From NCBI GenBank assembly GCA_003402735.1, contig QQNE01000005.1, forward strand, positions 1-64,000: a DNA stretch of 64,000 nt, in the 5' to 3' direction. Positions 7,174 to 13,517 of the stretch are shown one piece after another (position 1 is the stretch's first letter; each line of letters starts with the position of its first letter). The DNA is from Verrucomicrobiota bacterium (GTDB lineage Bacteria; Verrucomicrobiota; Verrucomicrobiia; Verrucomicrobiales; DEV007). Both the position numbers and the translations under genes were made by a program. The notes under the pieces were generated by a model. The model saw only the letters and a program-made list of their open reading frames with translations, searched no databases and had not been told where the DNA came from.

Positions 7174-7896
7174 ATGCGCCGTTTGGCCCTCCAGGTTCTC
7201 CGATCCCGGCTGATTCCCGGACTTTTCCTCGTTCCCGCGCTTGCGCTGGCGGAGGGCCCGGTGGTTTTGGGGCAGGGCACGGCTTCGTATTATCGGCCCG
7301 GATATGTCGCGACCACTTCGTCCGGTGAGCCTTATCATCCCGAGCTGTTCACCGCCGCGCACGCTTCCTTGGCCATGGGGAGCTGGGTGCGGGTGACCAA
7401 TCTCAAAACCGGGCAAAGTGTTCTCGTGCGGGTCAACGACCGCAGCCCGTTTGTGGCTGGGAACCTGATCGATGTCTCCCTGGCGGCGGCGGAAAAACTG
7501 GATTTGCTGAAGACCGGGTATGCCGAGGTGAGTTTGGCGATTTTGGAATCGCCCGGGGCGGTGAATGGGGGGGCGGGGAGGCTGACTCCGGTCTCCGGTT
7601 TGCCGCCCTCGCCTGCGGTCACCGCCTCAACATCCGCCGCGGCGCCGGTGCGTCCGGTGTTTCGCATCCAATTTGCCACGTATCACGAGCTCTCCCCCGC
7701 GAACCGGGACCAGGCGGAGCTGCGAGGTCAGGGGGTGGATACCGTCATTTACCGCAGGGAGAATGCGGGGGCCGGGGAGCCCCTCTTCCGTTTGGTGACG
7801 TCGGGAGGATTTGCCGATCAAGTGGCCGCCGAGCGCTGGCTGGATTACATCAAACGCAAGGCGGGGCGTTACCCGGATGCCTGTGTCAGCCCCTGA
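7174..7896 (+). CDS. rlpA: RlpA-like secreted protein (double-psi beta-barrel plus C-terminal SPOR-like region)
   Basis: A 240-residue exported protein. The signal peptide is about residues 1-25. A double-psi beta-barrel follows (~27-130) with family motifs GTASYY, TAAHASLAMGSWVRVTNL and VRVNDRSPFVAGNLIDVSLAAAE. A Pro/Ala linker leads to a C-terminal SPOR-like segment (~160-235; FRIQFATYHE, FRLVTSGGFADQVAAERWL). RlpA proteins act on or bind denuded septal peptidoglycan; whether this one is a lytic transglycosylase cannot be told here. The downstream sensor gene starts 4 bp after the stop. Confidence 0.85.
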   Translation: MRRLALQVLRSRLIPGLFLVPALALAEGPVVLGQGTASYYRPGYVATTSSGEPYHPELFTAAHASLAMGSWVRVTNLKTGQSVLVRVNDRSPFVAGNLIDVSLAAAEKLDLLKTGYAEVSLAILESPGAVNGGAGRLTPVSGLPPSPAVTASTSAAAPVRPVFRIQFATYHELSPANRDQAELRGQGVDTVIYRRENAGAGEPLFRLVTSGGFADQVAAERWLDYIKRKAGRYPDACVSP

Positions 7897-9685: not shown

Positions 9686-11830
9686 ATGAGAATTATCATC
9701 CTGATTCTCCTGGTCACAGGCATTCTGATCCACGCGTGGGGATCAAGGCGCTGGGCGATGCCGTCGAATCAGCAGCTCTTGCAGCAGCAGGCGGTGGGCA
9801 ATCTTAGCTCGGACGACAAATTTTCCCAGGTGTCGGTGGAGTTTTTGTTGTTGGATGGCCGGGTCGGTGGGCAGGTTCCGAGCGTGGAGGCGAGGGAACA
9901 GGCCTGGGCGGTGATCCAGAAGTCCGTTGCGGCGGGTCGCTTGTTTGACCATTTGGAAGTGGTCGCTCCCCGGGATCAACCGGCGCGCATCGTCATCACC
10001 GCCGCTGGAGGCATCGTGACCTTCCGTGGGGTGGTGGGCGATTCCTCCCTGAAACAGGCGGTGACGGCGGGGCTGGGCGCCGGGCGAGCCTTCAGGGACG
10101 AGCTGGTGGTCAGCGAGAGGGTCCGGGAGCCGCTTTGGGCGGGACGGGTCGGTGAATTGGTGGCCCGATATTTCGGGCAAATCGCGGACGGTGCATTGGA
10201 ACTGGGCGAGCGGGAGTTCGTGCTTCGCGGGAGGATCAAGGGGGAGAAGGCCCGGGACGCATTGATCGCCGGGGTTCGGGCTTTTCTTCCGGAGGGCGGC
10301 ACGCTCCGCAGTGAATTGCAACTCCTCCCGGATCAACCCGCCTCGGTCCTCGCGCAGCGGGACGGCAATCGGATCCATCTGTCCGGGAAGTTGCCGAGCG
10401 GAGACGCCATCGCTTCCCTGCTTCAGGCGCTCAATCTCCCCGCGGTTCAAGTGGAGCATCAGCTGCAGGGGGACGCCCGAGTGGAGACGCCGACCTGGGC
10501 GGTGGCGTTTCCCGCTTTCCTTTCGGGGTTTTTCCGGGACGGGCCGGGAGCGGTGGAACTTCAGGGGAAACAGCTCACCCTCCGGGGAGAACGCCCGGCG
10601 TCCAAGGGGCGCGCCCAGTTGGATTCGCTGCTTCAACCGATGCGGCAGGCGGGCTGTGAGGTGCGGGACTTGGTTCAATTCGTGCCCGACCTGGACCCGG
10701 TTTTCCGTGCCCGTCTGGCTGACGGAACCCTCCAATTGAGCGGGCGCCTGCCGAACGAGTCGATCCGTGGCCGAATCCTGGCCGGGGCTGGGGAGGTCGG
10801 GGCCGCCCGTCTCGATTCCCAGATCAAGGTGGAACCCGCTGTCCGGAGCGCTCCCTGGCTCGAATCGTTGCCGGGCTTGCTCAAGGCCTTTTTTGCGAAG
10901 CGCCAAGCGGGGGAATTGGTCTTCGACGGAAACACCTGGCGCGTTCTGGGCGAGATCGAGGGCCCCCAGGCGCGGGAAACGTTGCTCGCGGAGGTCGCCA
11001 AGCTGGTTCCCCCCGGGGTCACTTTGGATCCCAGCGGGTTGCGGTTGCTGCCAGTTCCAGTGCCGATGCCTGTGCCAGTGCCGCCACCGGTGCCGGGGAA
11101 GGCGGAGACGGCGCCGTGGTTGGTGGTGCAATTTGGTTCGGGGGAATGGCGGATCGAGGGCCAAGTGCTCGAGGAAGCGGACCGCAAGACCTTGACCGCC
11201 GCGGTGGAGCCGAAGGCCCCGGGCATCAAGTTGAGCGATGGTCTCAAGGTGGCCGCGGACACCGGCAAAGCTCCGTGGGTGGGGCCGATCAGCCGTTTTC
11301 TTCCCAAGTTCGGGGCCATGGTTTCCCAGGGGCGCCTGGAACTGCGCAACGGCAAGCTGACGCTTTCCGGGGAGGCATTGGATCCCAAAACCCGCGATTC
11401 CCTCCTGGCGGAATTGGCCGCCGCGTTGCCCAACGAACTGGTCAAGGTCGAGGACAAGATGACCGTGAGGCAATCCGGTGCCCAGGCGGACTCCGCCCCG
11501 ACGTTCGTGATTTATTTCAATGCCGGCAGCGATTGGATTCGCCCCGATGGTCGTCTTGAAATCGACAAAGCCGCGGCCGCAGCCTCGGCCCTGCCGCCCG
11601 GCAGCACCGTTTTGGTCAAGGGTTTTGCCGATTCCCGGGGAGACGCCATGAGCAACCTCAAGCTCAGTGAATTGCGGGCCGAGGCGGTCCGGCAGAGCCT
11701 CCTGCAGCGCGGTTTGGCCGAGAAATCCCTGGAGTTGATTGGGGTTGGGGACCGCGAAGCGAATCAGGGAAGGTCCGAGGAGGTCTGGAGCAAGGATCGC
11801 CGGGTGGAAATCATCGCGGTGCGCAAGTGA
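9686..11830 (+). CDS. Membrane-anchored BON-repeat / OmpA-like protein (ArfA/OmpATb-like architecture)
   Basis: A 714-residue protein. One N-terminal membrane anchor (~1-19), then about four ~120-residue repeats, then an OmpA-like peptidoglycan-binding domain (~605-714; VKGFADSRGD, SKDRRVEII). Each repeat begins with a Trp-containing helix (WAGRVGELVARYF at 151, WAVAFPAFLSGFF at 271, WLESLPGLLKAFF at 391, WVGPISRFLPKFG at 531). Each holds BON-like beta-alpha-beta units with a G-x-L-x-L-x-G core, about eight in total. A Val/Pro-rich linker lies at 456-470. The plan (TM, BON, OmpA, then two small membrane proteins downstream) is that of mycobacterial OmpATb/ArfA, but with more BON units. A tether between inner membrane and cell wall is the likely role. 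The AT-rich 129-bp gap upstream may hold its promoter. Confidence 0.82.
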   Translation: MRIIILILLVTGILIHAWGSRRWAMPSNQQLLQQQAVGNLSSDDKFSQVSVEFLLLDGRVGGQVPSVEAREQAWAVIQKSVAAGRLFDHLEVVAPRDQPARIVITAAGGIVTFRGVVGDSSLKQAVTAGLGAGRAFRDELVVSERVREPLWAGRVGELVARYFGQIADGALELGEREFVLRGRIKGEKARDALIAGVRAFLPEGGTLRSELQLLPDQPASVLAQRDGNRIHLSGKLPSGDAIASLLQALNLPAVQVEHQLQGDARVETPTWAVAFPAFLSGFFRDGPGAVELQGKQLTLRGERPASKGRAQLDSLLQPMRQAGCEVRDLVQFVPDLDPVFRARLADGTLQLSGRLPNESIRGRILAGAGEVGAARLDSQIKVEPAVRSAPWLESLPGLLKAFFAKRQAGELVFDGNTWRVLGEIEGPQARETLLAEVAKLVPPGVTLDPSGLRLLPVPVPMPVPVPPPVPGKAETAPWLVVQFGSGEWRIEGQVLEEADRKTLTAAVEPKAPGIKLSDGLKVAADTGKAPWVGPISRFLPKFGAMVSQGRLELRNGKLTLSGEALDPKTRDSLLAELAAALPNELVKVEDKMTVRQSGAQADSAPTFVIYFNAGSDWIRPDGRLEIDKAAAAASALPPGSTVLVKGFADSRGDAMSNLKLSELRAEAVRQSLLQRGLAEKSLELIGVGDREANQGRSEEVWSKDRRVEIIAVRK

Positions 11831-11844
11831 CGGAGAGACGATTG

Positions 11845-12072
11845 ATGAACATCAACTTCATGGATTCCGGGGATACAGCCGCCTACTATTGGGTGCATCA
11901 GGTCCTGGCCAGCGCCATCTGGGGCTTGGGATTCTTTTTCGTCGGGCTCTTGCTGGCGGCTTTGTTGTGGGGGGGCGCGCGGCGCCGGGCCAACGCGCAA
12001 CGGATTGCCAACCAGAAACTCTTGGCGGAGTGTCAGAAAATCGAGCGGGCCAATGGCGACAGCCGTTCTTGA
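11845..12072 (+). CDS. Small single-span membrane protein in the arf-like operon
   Basis: A 75-residue protein with one transmembrane helix (~22-47; IWGLGFFFVGLLLAALLW) followed by a basic, helical tail. The ATG at 11845 is preceded by GGAGAG at good distance. An upstream GTG at 11827 would overlap the previous stop (GTGA). It takes the position of ArfB in the mycobacterial operon; this is positional analogy, not sequence homology that I can demonstrate. Confidence 0.7.
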   Translation: MNINFMDSGDTAAYYWVHQVLASAIWGLGFFFVGLLLAALLWGGARRRANAQRIANQKLLAECQKIERANGDSRS

Positions 12073-12075
12073 TCC

Positions 12076-12495
12076 ATGGAAACCATTGATAACATCCGGT
12101 TTTTGGCGCTGCACTCGGCTTTTCCCTGGCTGACGGCGGCGTTTTTCGCCTCGCTCGGGCTCTGGTTCGGGCACGTCCTCTGGTTTGATTGGGTGCGGCA
12201 ACTGCGTCCGTTGCGCGCCGAGCATCGGGAACTTTCTCGGCGGCTCGAGGGCTTGACCGCCGTCCGCGATTCTTCACCTCCCCCGGTTTCTCTTCCCGAG
12301 CAATCTCCCGCCGCCGCCGCACCCGAGCTCTCTGCCGGCGCGCTGTCCGCCGAGTTTTGGCCCATCCCCGAGAGAGCGCCCGAGGCCACGGTGGTCACCG
12401 GAGAAGTGGTGCCCGACAAGGTGCGGGAGGCGGCAGCGAGGCTCGTGGGAATCCCGTTGGGCCCCGATTCCCCTGGCGGCGGGAAAGAGGCCTGA
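12076..12495 (+). CDS. Membrane protein with Pro/Ala-rich tail in the arf-like operon
   Basis: A 139-residue protein with a hydrophobic N-terminal segment (~13-35; AFPWLTAAFFASLGLWFGHVL). A short basic coiled-coil-like stretch follows (LRPLRAEHRELSRRLEGL), then a low-complexity Pro/Ala/Glu-rich tail. It begins 3 bp after the previous gene and ends 5 bp before the methyltransferase gene. It is the positional counterpart of ArfC. No enzymatic motif is seen. Confidence 0.68.
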   Translation: METIDNIRFLALHSAFPWLTAAFFASLGLWFGHVLWFDWVRQLRPLRAEHRELSRRLEGLTAVRDSSPPPVSLPEQSPAAAAPELSAGALSAEFWPIPERAPEATVVTGEVVPDKVREAAARLVGIPLGPDSPGGGKEA

Positions 12496-12500
12496 GGCGG

Positions 12501-13517
12501 ATGGAATTCCCGTTCCTGTTTGCCGTCTGCCGGGCGGGCGTGGAGCCCCTCCTCAAAGGGGAGATGGCGCAGCGCCATGGCGAACGTCTCGTGCCCGCCT
12601 TCATGCGCCCGCAACTGGTCACCTGGAAAGCGGGGAAGCCTCTTCCCGAGGATTTCGATCCGGGGCTTTCGTTTGCGCGCCACTGGGGATTCTCGTTTGG
12701 CTTGGTCCCGGCGCCGGGGGAAATTCCCGCCAGATGGACGGAGGCGATGGGCGATTTCGCCGGTCTGCCGGCTCGTTGGGATGTCTATCCGCGGCTGGTC
12801 CCGGATGGCGGTGTTTCCCCGGAAATCTGGCAGGAGGCGGATGCGATCCGCGGGCAATTGCCCACGGCGGGTTCCGGTTCCTGGGTTGGTGAGGTGATTC
12901 TTGGGGAGCCGGGAGTGCCGCTGCTTGTCGGGGGACGTCGGTTGGTCGGTGCAGGGCCGGTCAGTCCGGGTGGATTGGCCCGGGTGAACCTTCCGCCGGA
13001 ATCGCCGTCCAGAGCCTGGCTCAAGCTGGAGCAGGCGTTGGCCTGGGTGGGTTGGGATGAGGAGAGCCGGTGGAAGGGAAAACGGGCGATTGAGCTCGGC
13101 AGCGCCCCCGGCGGCATCTCCCTGGCGCTCGTGCGGCGTGGGCTTCACGTGGAGGCTGTCGATCCGGCTCCGATGCATCCGTCCGTTCTGGCGGAGATCG
13201 GACCGGGCGGGGCCCGGGTGCACCACCGGCGTCAGTCGGCCGGGAGATTCTTGTCGGAAAACCGGGAAGGGCCGGTGGATTTGTTGGTCTCCGACATGAA
13301 CCTGGCGCCGCCGGCGGTTTTGCGTTACCTGGAGCGGCTTCAAGCCGCGGTGCGGGCGCGGCGTTGGATCATCACCTTGAAGCTGAACGACGCCGCCATG
13401 ATTTCACGCCTGCCCCATTTTCGGGAACGGCTTGGCCGCGTGGCTCCCCAGCCGGTGCGGGTGCTGCAATTGCCCGCCAACCGCCAGGAGGTGATGGTGA
13501 TCGCGGGGGAGGGTTGA
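12501..13517 (+). CDS. RlmM/FtsJ-like 2'-O-ribose methyltransferase
   Basis: A 338-residue protein with a C-terminal FtsJ-type Rossmann domain. The SAM motif is AIELGSAPGGISLAL. Further conserved points are VDLLVSDMNLAPP (catalytic Asp region) and WIITLKLN (catalytic Lys). The layout, with a ~170-residue N-terminal extension, matches RlmM (YgdE), which methylates a ribose in 23S rRNA domain V. Target specificity is inferred. The ATG at 12501 follows GAGGCGG. The frame stays open upstream inside the previous gene, but that part does not look like protein. Convergent with 13522-14682, only 4 bp away. Confidence 0.82.
   Translation: MEFPFLFAVCRAGVEPLLKGEMAQRHGERLVPAFMRPQLVTWKAGKPLPEDFDPGLSFARHWGFSFGLVPAPGEIPARWTEAMGDFAGLPARWDVYPRLVPDGGVSPEIWQEADAIRGQLPTAGSGSWVGEVILGEPGVPLLVGGRRLVGAGPVSPGGLARVNLPPESPSRAWLKLEQALAWVGWDEESRWKGKRAIELGSAPGGISLALVRRGLHVEAVDPAPMHPSVLAEIGPGGARVHHRRQSAGRFLSENREGPVDLLVSDMNLAPPAVLRYLERLQAAVRARRWIITLKLNDAAMISRLPHFRERLGRVAPQPVRVLQLPANRQEVMVIAGEG

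Follow-up and report, generated by a model that had tools for sequence, protein, structure and literature searches.

What does a bacterium of the phylum Verrucomicrobiota do with an operon built like mycobacterial arfABC? The operon in question occupies positions 9,686 to 12,495 of the window, the 64,000-nucleotide stretch of DNA analyzed here (contig QQNE01000005.1, positions 1 to 64,000, assembly GCA_003402735.1; Verrucomicrobiales; DEV007). It consists of three genes arranged head to tail and, like every window feature described below, it lies on the forward strand. A first-pass annotation had proposed these open reading frames, and all three were confirmed. The first gene (9686..11830) encodes an ArfA-like protein of 714 amino acids which, from profiles, carries an N-terminal membrane anchor, nine BON half-units and a C-terminal OmpA domain. 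The gene in the ArfB position (11845..12072; 75 amino acids) encodes a predicted N-out transmembrane segment with a G..W motif and a short basic cytosolic helix. The gene in the ArfC position (12076..12495; 139 amino acids) encodes a predicted N-out transmembrane segment (LGLWFG..LW), a variable linker and a conserved C-terminal motif.

The first gene of this operon is truly similar to its arfABC counterpart, whereas the other two resemble theirs in architecture. What is new here is the wider system to which the operon belongs. Paralogous operons usually have, after the BON/OmpA gene, a gene whose product consists of a membrane anchor, a linker and a tail of helix-hairpin-helix (HHH) type, and a ribosomal protein can likewise carry the HHH unit as its tail. 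We read the system as an ArfABC-type tether between wall and cytosol, anchored to peptidoglycan and bearing exchangeable cytosolic tails, a reading to which we give a probability of roughly 55%.

Conservation of the operon

In the window genome and two relatives of the same genus, the gene order and the methyltransferase gene downstream are the same (three of three genomes). The first-pass annotation had made its reading depend on the two small genes staying beside the OmpA gene in relatives, which they do throughout the genus. Pairwise comparison with the two same-genus genomes gave dN/dS values of 0.16–0.24 for the ArfA-like gene, 0.10–0.22 for the 75-amino acid gene and 0.10–0.18 for the 139-amino acid gene; all three genes are under purifying selection. 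The window genome assembly is made up of 164 contigs at 82% completeness, and gene calls outside the window were made in the present analysis.

The ArfA-like protein

The ArfA-like protein opens with a hydrophobic segment (residues 1–19; 9686..9742; hydropathy 2.11) that would serve as a membrane anchor or signal peptide and is retained in 14 aligned relatives, except for one that was called short. By inspection of the alignment, a single BON half-unit (residues about 48–93; 9827..9964) follows, and then four ArfA_N-type double-BON blocks at 9974..10333, 10328..10705, 10697..11065 and 11108..11482. Each block is about 120 residues long and has the order BON-helix-BON. About eight BON units in four such blocks, each opened by a Trp helix, had been claimed at first. 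The four blocks stand; the half-units number nine, and the Trp-containing helix sits between the two halves of each block. At the C-terminus is an OmpA (PF00691) peptidoglycan-binding domain (11513..11764) that retains the Asp and Arg which we take to be the diaminopimelate-contacting residues.

Profile searches matched the protein to OmpA PF00691 (E 1.1e-11) and BON_like PF21923 (E 1.6e-9), while the match to BON PF04972 reached just 7.9e-4, under the cut-off of that model. The NCBIfam model ArfA_OmpATb_N (NF051434) gave 96.8 bits against a cut-off of 81, a total over five stretches of the protein; the best single stretch in a scan of the window genome scored 37 bits. This model also matches ordinary OsmY-type BON proteins at E values of about 1e-7. 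Because of the summed stretches and the OsmY-type matches, its score alone is no proof of membership. Other Verrucomicrobial ArfA-like proteins score 45–112 bits, several of them under the cut-off.

Two further lines of evidence point the same way. A reciprocal profile built on the Verrucomicrobial BON region scores mycobacterial ArfA N-domains at 30–49 bits, in the best case across the full double unit, which lends independent support to an ArfA-like fold of the block. Block 2 (residues 215–340) was also modeled from an alignment that contained, besides it, the other three blocks and eight ArfA domains from mycobacteria. The model has a pLDDT of 89, with six strands and three helices in the order EEaE-a-EEaE, and could be biased by the mycobacterial rows in the alignment. 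Its top three PDB matches in Foldseek were 2kgs, 2ksm and 2l26, all structures of the N-terminal or central domain of OmpATb/Rv0899, at E 5.2e-8 to 3.2e-5 and TM 0.73–0.78 (best, 2kgs; E 5.2e-8, TM 0.78). The structures of OsmY, DolP and BonA matched far more weakly. Folding of the whole protein without an alignment yielded no usable model (pLDDT 42). Curated profile, reciprocal profile and modeled fold together support an ArfA-like identity for the first gene, as the first-pass annotation had proposed. That annotation had left open that the repeats might find no structural match to BON; the modeled block instead finds Rv0899/OmpATb first. A reading of the protein as ZorB/MotB of the Zorya defense system was considered and set aside; it had just weak matches to the OmpA part (13.6–20.8 bits), and no ZorA-like gene is listed near the first gene.

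The two small membrane proteins

In nearly all relatives, the second and third proteins have more Lys and Arg after the membrane segment than before it. They are predicted, from hydropathy and charge, to be anchors with the N-terminus out and the C-terminus in. Among the Verrucomicrobial proteins, the second is similar to the third (hhalign probability 97%, E 2.9e-11); the two thus look like duplicated anchors, with a score that their common hydrophobic segment can inflate. The window third-protein anchor is also 31–34% identical to several anchors of the HHH type described below.

Kinship with the mycobacterial small proteins was not found. Comparison of the second protein with ArfB gave an hhalign probability of 1.8% and no match to NF051435; comparison of the third with ArfC gave 1.9% and no match to NF051455 or NF051433. 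Of the arfABC gene order first claimed for this locus, the order itself, the sizes and the predicted topology hold, and sequence kinship of the small proteins with ArfB and ArfC does not.

The most conserved part of the third protein is its C-terminus. The last 50 residues (LSAEFWPIPE..ATVVTGEVVPDKVREAAA.LVGI.LGPD; 12343..12492), aligned within the genus, are 82–84% identical, and the linker before them is variable. In ten genomes searched, this motif was found on no other protein and is limited to the genus; a match in another genome (G071; E 0.04) was discarded as chance, there being no ArfC-like gene in that genome.

Paralogous operons and their HHH tails

Ninety-four genomes of the order were searched, and about 80 loci were read. 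Paralogous operons consist of a BON-OmpA gene, sometimes a small anchor gene, and then an anchor protein with a domain of cytosolic type. Among 49 genes for membrane-anchored HHH proteins with a readable upstream side, 41 lie directly 3ʹ of a BON/OmpA gene that has the same orientation, mostly with a gap of 0–20 bp. A stop interrupts one of these 41, and another has a weak match upstream. Genomes hold 0–13 BON/OmpA matches each, so that chance would place well under 1% of the HHH genes in this position. The 41 linked genes fall in eight genera of two families and hence are not independent events.

The third proteins of these operons vary widely in their cytosolic-type end. In two genomes of the window genus, they are 2,823 and 2,799 residues long, each with 24 HHH units by profile, and pieces of this long array are present on other contigs of the window genome. 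Others have one HHH unit, combine HHH-like units with a VWA domain, or finish in an OmpA-like end after a long coiled coil. Two third genes that end in a VWA domain (L037, L051) encode HHH-like units without the second Gly of the hairpin. In the third proteins of one genus, all nine OmpA-like ends have lost the diaminopimelate-contacting Asp, as expected if those ends are cytosolic; it is kept in 11 of 14 first proteins.

Within a sample of 289 genomes of the phylum, the HHH unit is confined to this order. The probes for surveying BON-type proteins differed in use. NF051434 was rejected as unspecific, picking up OsmY-type BON proteins, and PF21923 as giving no matches anywhere, the window genome included. 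At E 1e-15, the BON profile proved too strict or shallow, and members of one family (f4) were missed by it and found otherwise. A tblastn search of plasmids with the window BON part gave no match. Outside the phylum, the gene that follows a BON-OmpA gene encodes a membrane protein bearing two HHH units in Rhizobium lusitanum and a 106-amino acid anchor in Tritonibacter.

Several other loci bear on these genes. One membrane protein of 1185 amino acids with at least ten HHH units (L136; G023:C24:49500-58352) is encoded with no BON/OmpA gene found beside it, and pieces of a broken membrane-HHH gene (L148; G043:C163) lie divergent from mreB-mreC. Translation genes recur near the BON-OmpA/HHH operons: genes for giant HHH arrays (L035, L036, L121) stand directly before rpmE (L31) and prfA, and many BON-OmpA operons of one genus (g2; L044-L050) adjoin rpsO-pnp.

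Tails shared with ribosomal proteins

In 20 of the 94 genomes, that of the window included, ribosomal protein L22 also ends in the HHH unit, which is joined to it by an Ala/Lys-rich linker. In the window genome (G000), the L22-HHH gene belongs to a normal S10 operon, where it lies between the genes for S19 and S3. In that operon, in the window genome and relatives, an extra gene for a coiled-coil protein lies between those for S19 and L22 (L149, 2008-3108). The window assembly holds two L22-HHH genes, L112 (G000:C123) and L149 (G000:C108). The C123 copy is 80% identical to L22 of another genus and the C108 copy resembles that of the genus sister, so the former is probably contamination.

The unit further matches NCBIfam models of L21, S2, NuoE and the phasin PhaH of Alphaproteobacteria, where it was called a tail from the matched model positions. 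These proteins (PRK12278 L21, PRK12311 S2, PRK12373 NuoE and PhaH) share with the Verrucomicrobial ones the tail unit and, in most cases, an Ala/Lys/Pro-rich linker. They differ in that here the HHH unit is carried by L22 and by BON/OmpA-paired membrane proteins, in arrays of at least 24 units.

A second tail domain is placed in the same way in mycobacteria. In the arfABC loci of eight mycobacteria read for comparison, ArfA is followed by an ArfB of about 50 amino acids, where intact, and then by ArfC, in which a long Pro/Ala/Lys linker connects an N-terminal anchor to a conserved C-terminal end, the sunset domain of NCBIfam. This domain is also part of the models of sunset variants of L17, L4, S2 and L20. 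Each of the eight mycobacterial genomes has two sunset proteins only. One is ArfC; the other consists of LGFP repeats, a transmembrane segment and an acidic linker that leads to the sunset domain at its end. LGFP repeats generally bind the wall, and the second protein looks like a wall binder and a cytosolic tail in one chain. It is encoded beside lexA (L200-L207). HHH and sunset are thus two tail domains, in distant phyla, with the same double placement on such membrane proteins and on ribosomal proteins.

Comparison with known systems

The arfABC system (ompATb operon, Rv0899–Rv0901; NF051434, NF051435, NF051433) and the window operon agree in gene order, in an ArfA-type double BON with OmpA, in two small anchors that are more positive after the transmembrane segment, and in a third protein with a long linker and a conserved C-terminal end. 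However, the window protein has four double-BON blocks and one half-unit, whereas mycobacterial ArfA has one block; the window second and third proteins have no sequence match to their counterparts, and the third lacks the sunset domain. BON+BON+OmpA proteins outside Actinobacteria have been tabulated before, mainly from alpha- and beta-proteobacteria and cyanobacteria (cluster 7, Table 1, PMC7806268). Their domain architecture is that of the first gene; where that paper sets out cluster 7, partner genes are not discussed, whereas the partner anchors and HHH tails are followed here. BON and OmpA genes within type VI secretion system clusters (Paraburkholderia, Acinetobacter) likewise have the BON-OmpA architecture, but are embedded in secretion genes and lack small anchors or an HHH partner. 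A search of the literature, mostly without subscription papers, found no paper that connects BON-OmpA genes with HHH or sunset partners, and nothing relevant on HHH tails of L22 or L21 together with OmpA or on the "sunset domain." NCBIfam curators name an ArfC "sunset domain variant," and part of the system may be known to them.

A proposed tether from wall to cytosol and its alternatives

In the proposed tether, the first protein would have its N-terminus in the inner membrane, its BON blocks spanning the periplasm and its OmpA domain gripping peptidoglycan. The second and third proteins, as related N-out/C-in anchors, would join it in the membrane and interact with each other by way of coiled coils in the cytosol, where the third protein would hold out a functional end on a flexible linker. 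Sister operons fill the place of this end with HHH units (from one up to at least 24), in some cases with a VWA domain, or with a coiled coil that has an OmpA-like fold; its mycobacterial counterpart would be the sunset domain. The likeliest job would be to hold a tailed cytosolic machine, such as ribosomes, or nucleic acid at the wall, because HHH and sunset also tail ribosomal proteins. That ribosomes or nucleic acid dock there is a guess; RNA or DNA, as a ligand common to the tails, would fit no less well than docking of tailed ribosomes.

Several points weigh against the tether. The complex is inferred from domains, gene linkage, tail sharing and conservation, and the topology of its anchors is a prediction from hydropathy and charge. 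The window third protein itself has no HHH units, and its cytosolic end is a motif private to the genus. Moreover, across the 94 genomes, an HHH third protein and an HHH-tailed L22 are not strictly found together: the tailed L22 is present but an HHH third protein is missing in g28 and most g2 genomes, and the reverse is true of family f4. A strict homotypic rule, with HHH on L22 if and only if it is on the third gene, was rejected as contradicted by this distribution. At the genus level, the overlap of L22-HHH with the operon reaches just P = 0.02 in groupings that are phylogenetically tied and is suggestive.

The alternative that survives best is an ordinary envelope stabilizer, in which a peptidoglycan-binding BON-OmpA protein of the inner membrane or periplasm is joined by two small structural anchors and has no cytosolic ligand. 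Many OmpA and BON proteins, such as DolP and BonA, serve envelope integrity purely (PMC7806268, PMC8406262), the window third protein has no recognizable cytosolic domain, and the nearby RlpA-type and FtsJ genes point to nothing specific. However, the third slot of sister operons holds large conserved domains of cytosolic type (HHH, VWA) linked to BON/OmpA genes, and the part of the window third protein most conserved is the very end that would face the cytosol. We regard a stabilizer as possible, if on the unlikely side.

A broader form of the tether is put forward tentatively and is itself doubtful. In this form, an ArfABC-type complex anchored to peptidoglycan would serve unrelated bacterial lineages as a hub for docking at the envelope. 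Ribosomes and other tailed machines would be brought to the wall by a tail domain particular to the lineage (HHH for Verrucomicrobiota and Alphaproteobacteria, sunset for Actinomycetota) and present both on ribosomal proteins and on the membrane partner. If the tether reading is right, the poorly understood mycobacterial ArfABC operon would gain a general role as a link from wall to cytosol, and two orphan tail domains of ribosomal proteins would be tied to a membrane partner. The unexplained tails of L21, L22, S2, L17, L4 and L20 would also become directly testable.

HhH motifs usually bind DNA backbones. The HHH units retain the GxG hairpin and match HHH_5 and the HHH regions of DNA polymerase IV and RadA, so the arrays of sister operons might instead bind chromosomal DNA and anchor the nucleoid, rather than ribosomes, to the wall. 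Yet the unit is most conserved as the tail of L22, and the curated models closest to it are of tails on ribosomal proteins, NuoE and a phasin rather than of DNA enzymes; we consider a nucleoid tether improbable. Least likely of all, and by analogy with Mycobacterium tuberculosis, the operon might encode a channel or exporter whose pore aids ammonia release or acid adaptation (reviewed in PMC6151718), as its gene order, its ArfA similarity and the NCBIfam family name "channel-forming protein ArfA/OmpATb" would suggest, but the absence of detectable sequence kinship with ArfB and ArfC speaks against it.

Neighboring genes

The gene immediately downstream of the operon, 5 bp past its end (12501..13517), encodes an FtsJ-type (RlmM-like) methyltransferase and is not counted as part of the proposed complex. 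Two genes upstream of the operon, a protein with an RlpA-type DPBB domain and a SPOR domain is encoded at window positions 7174-7896.
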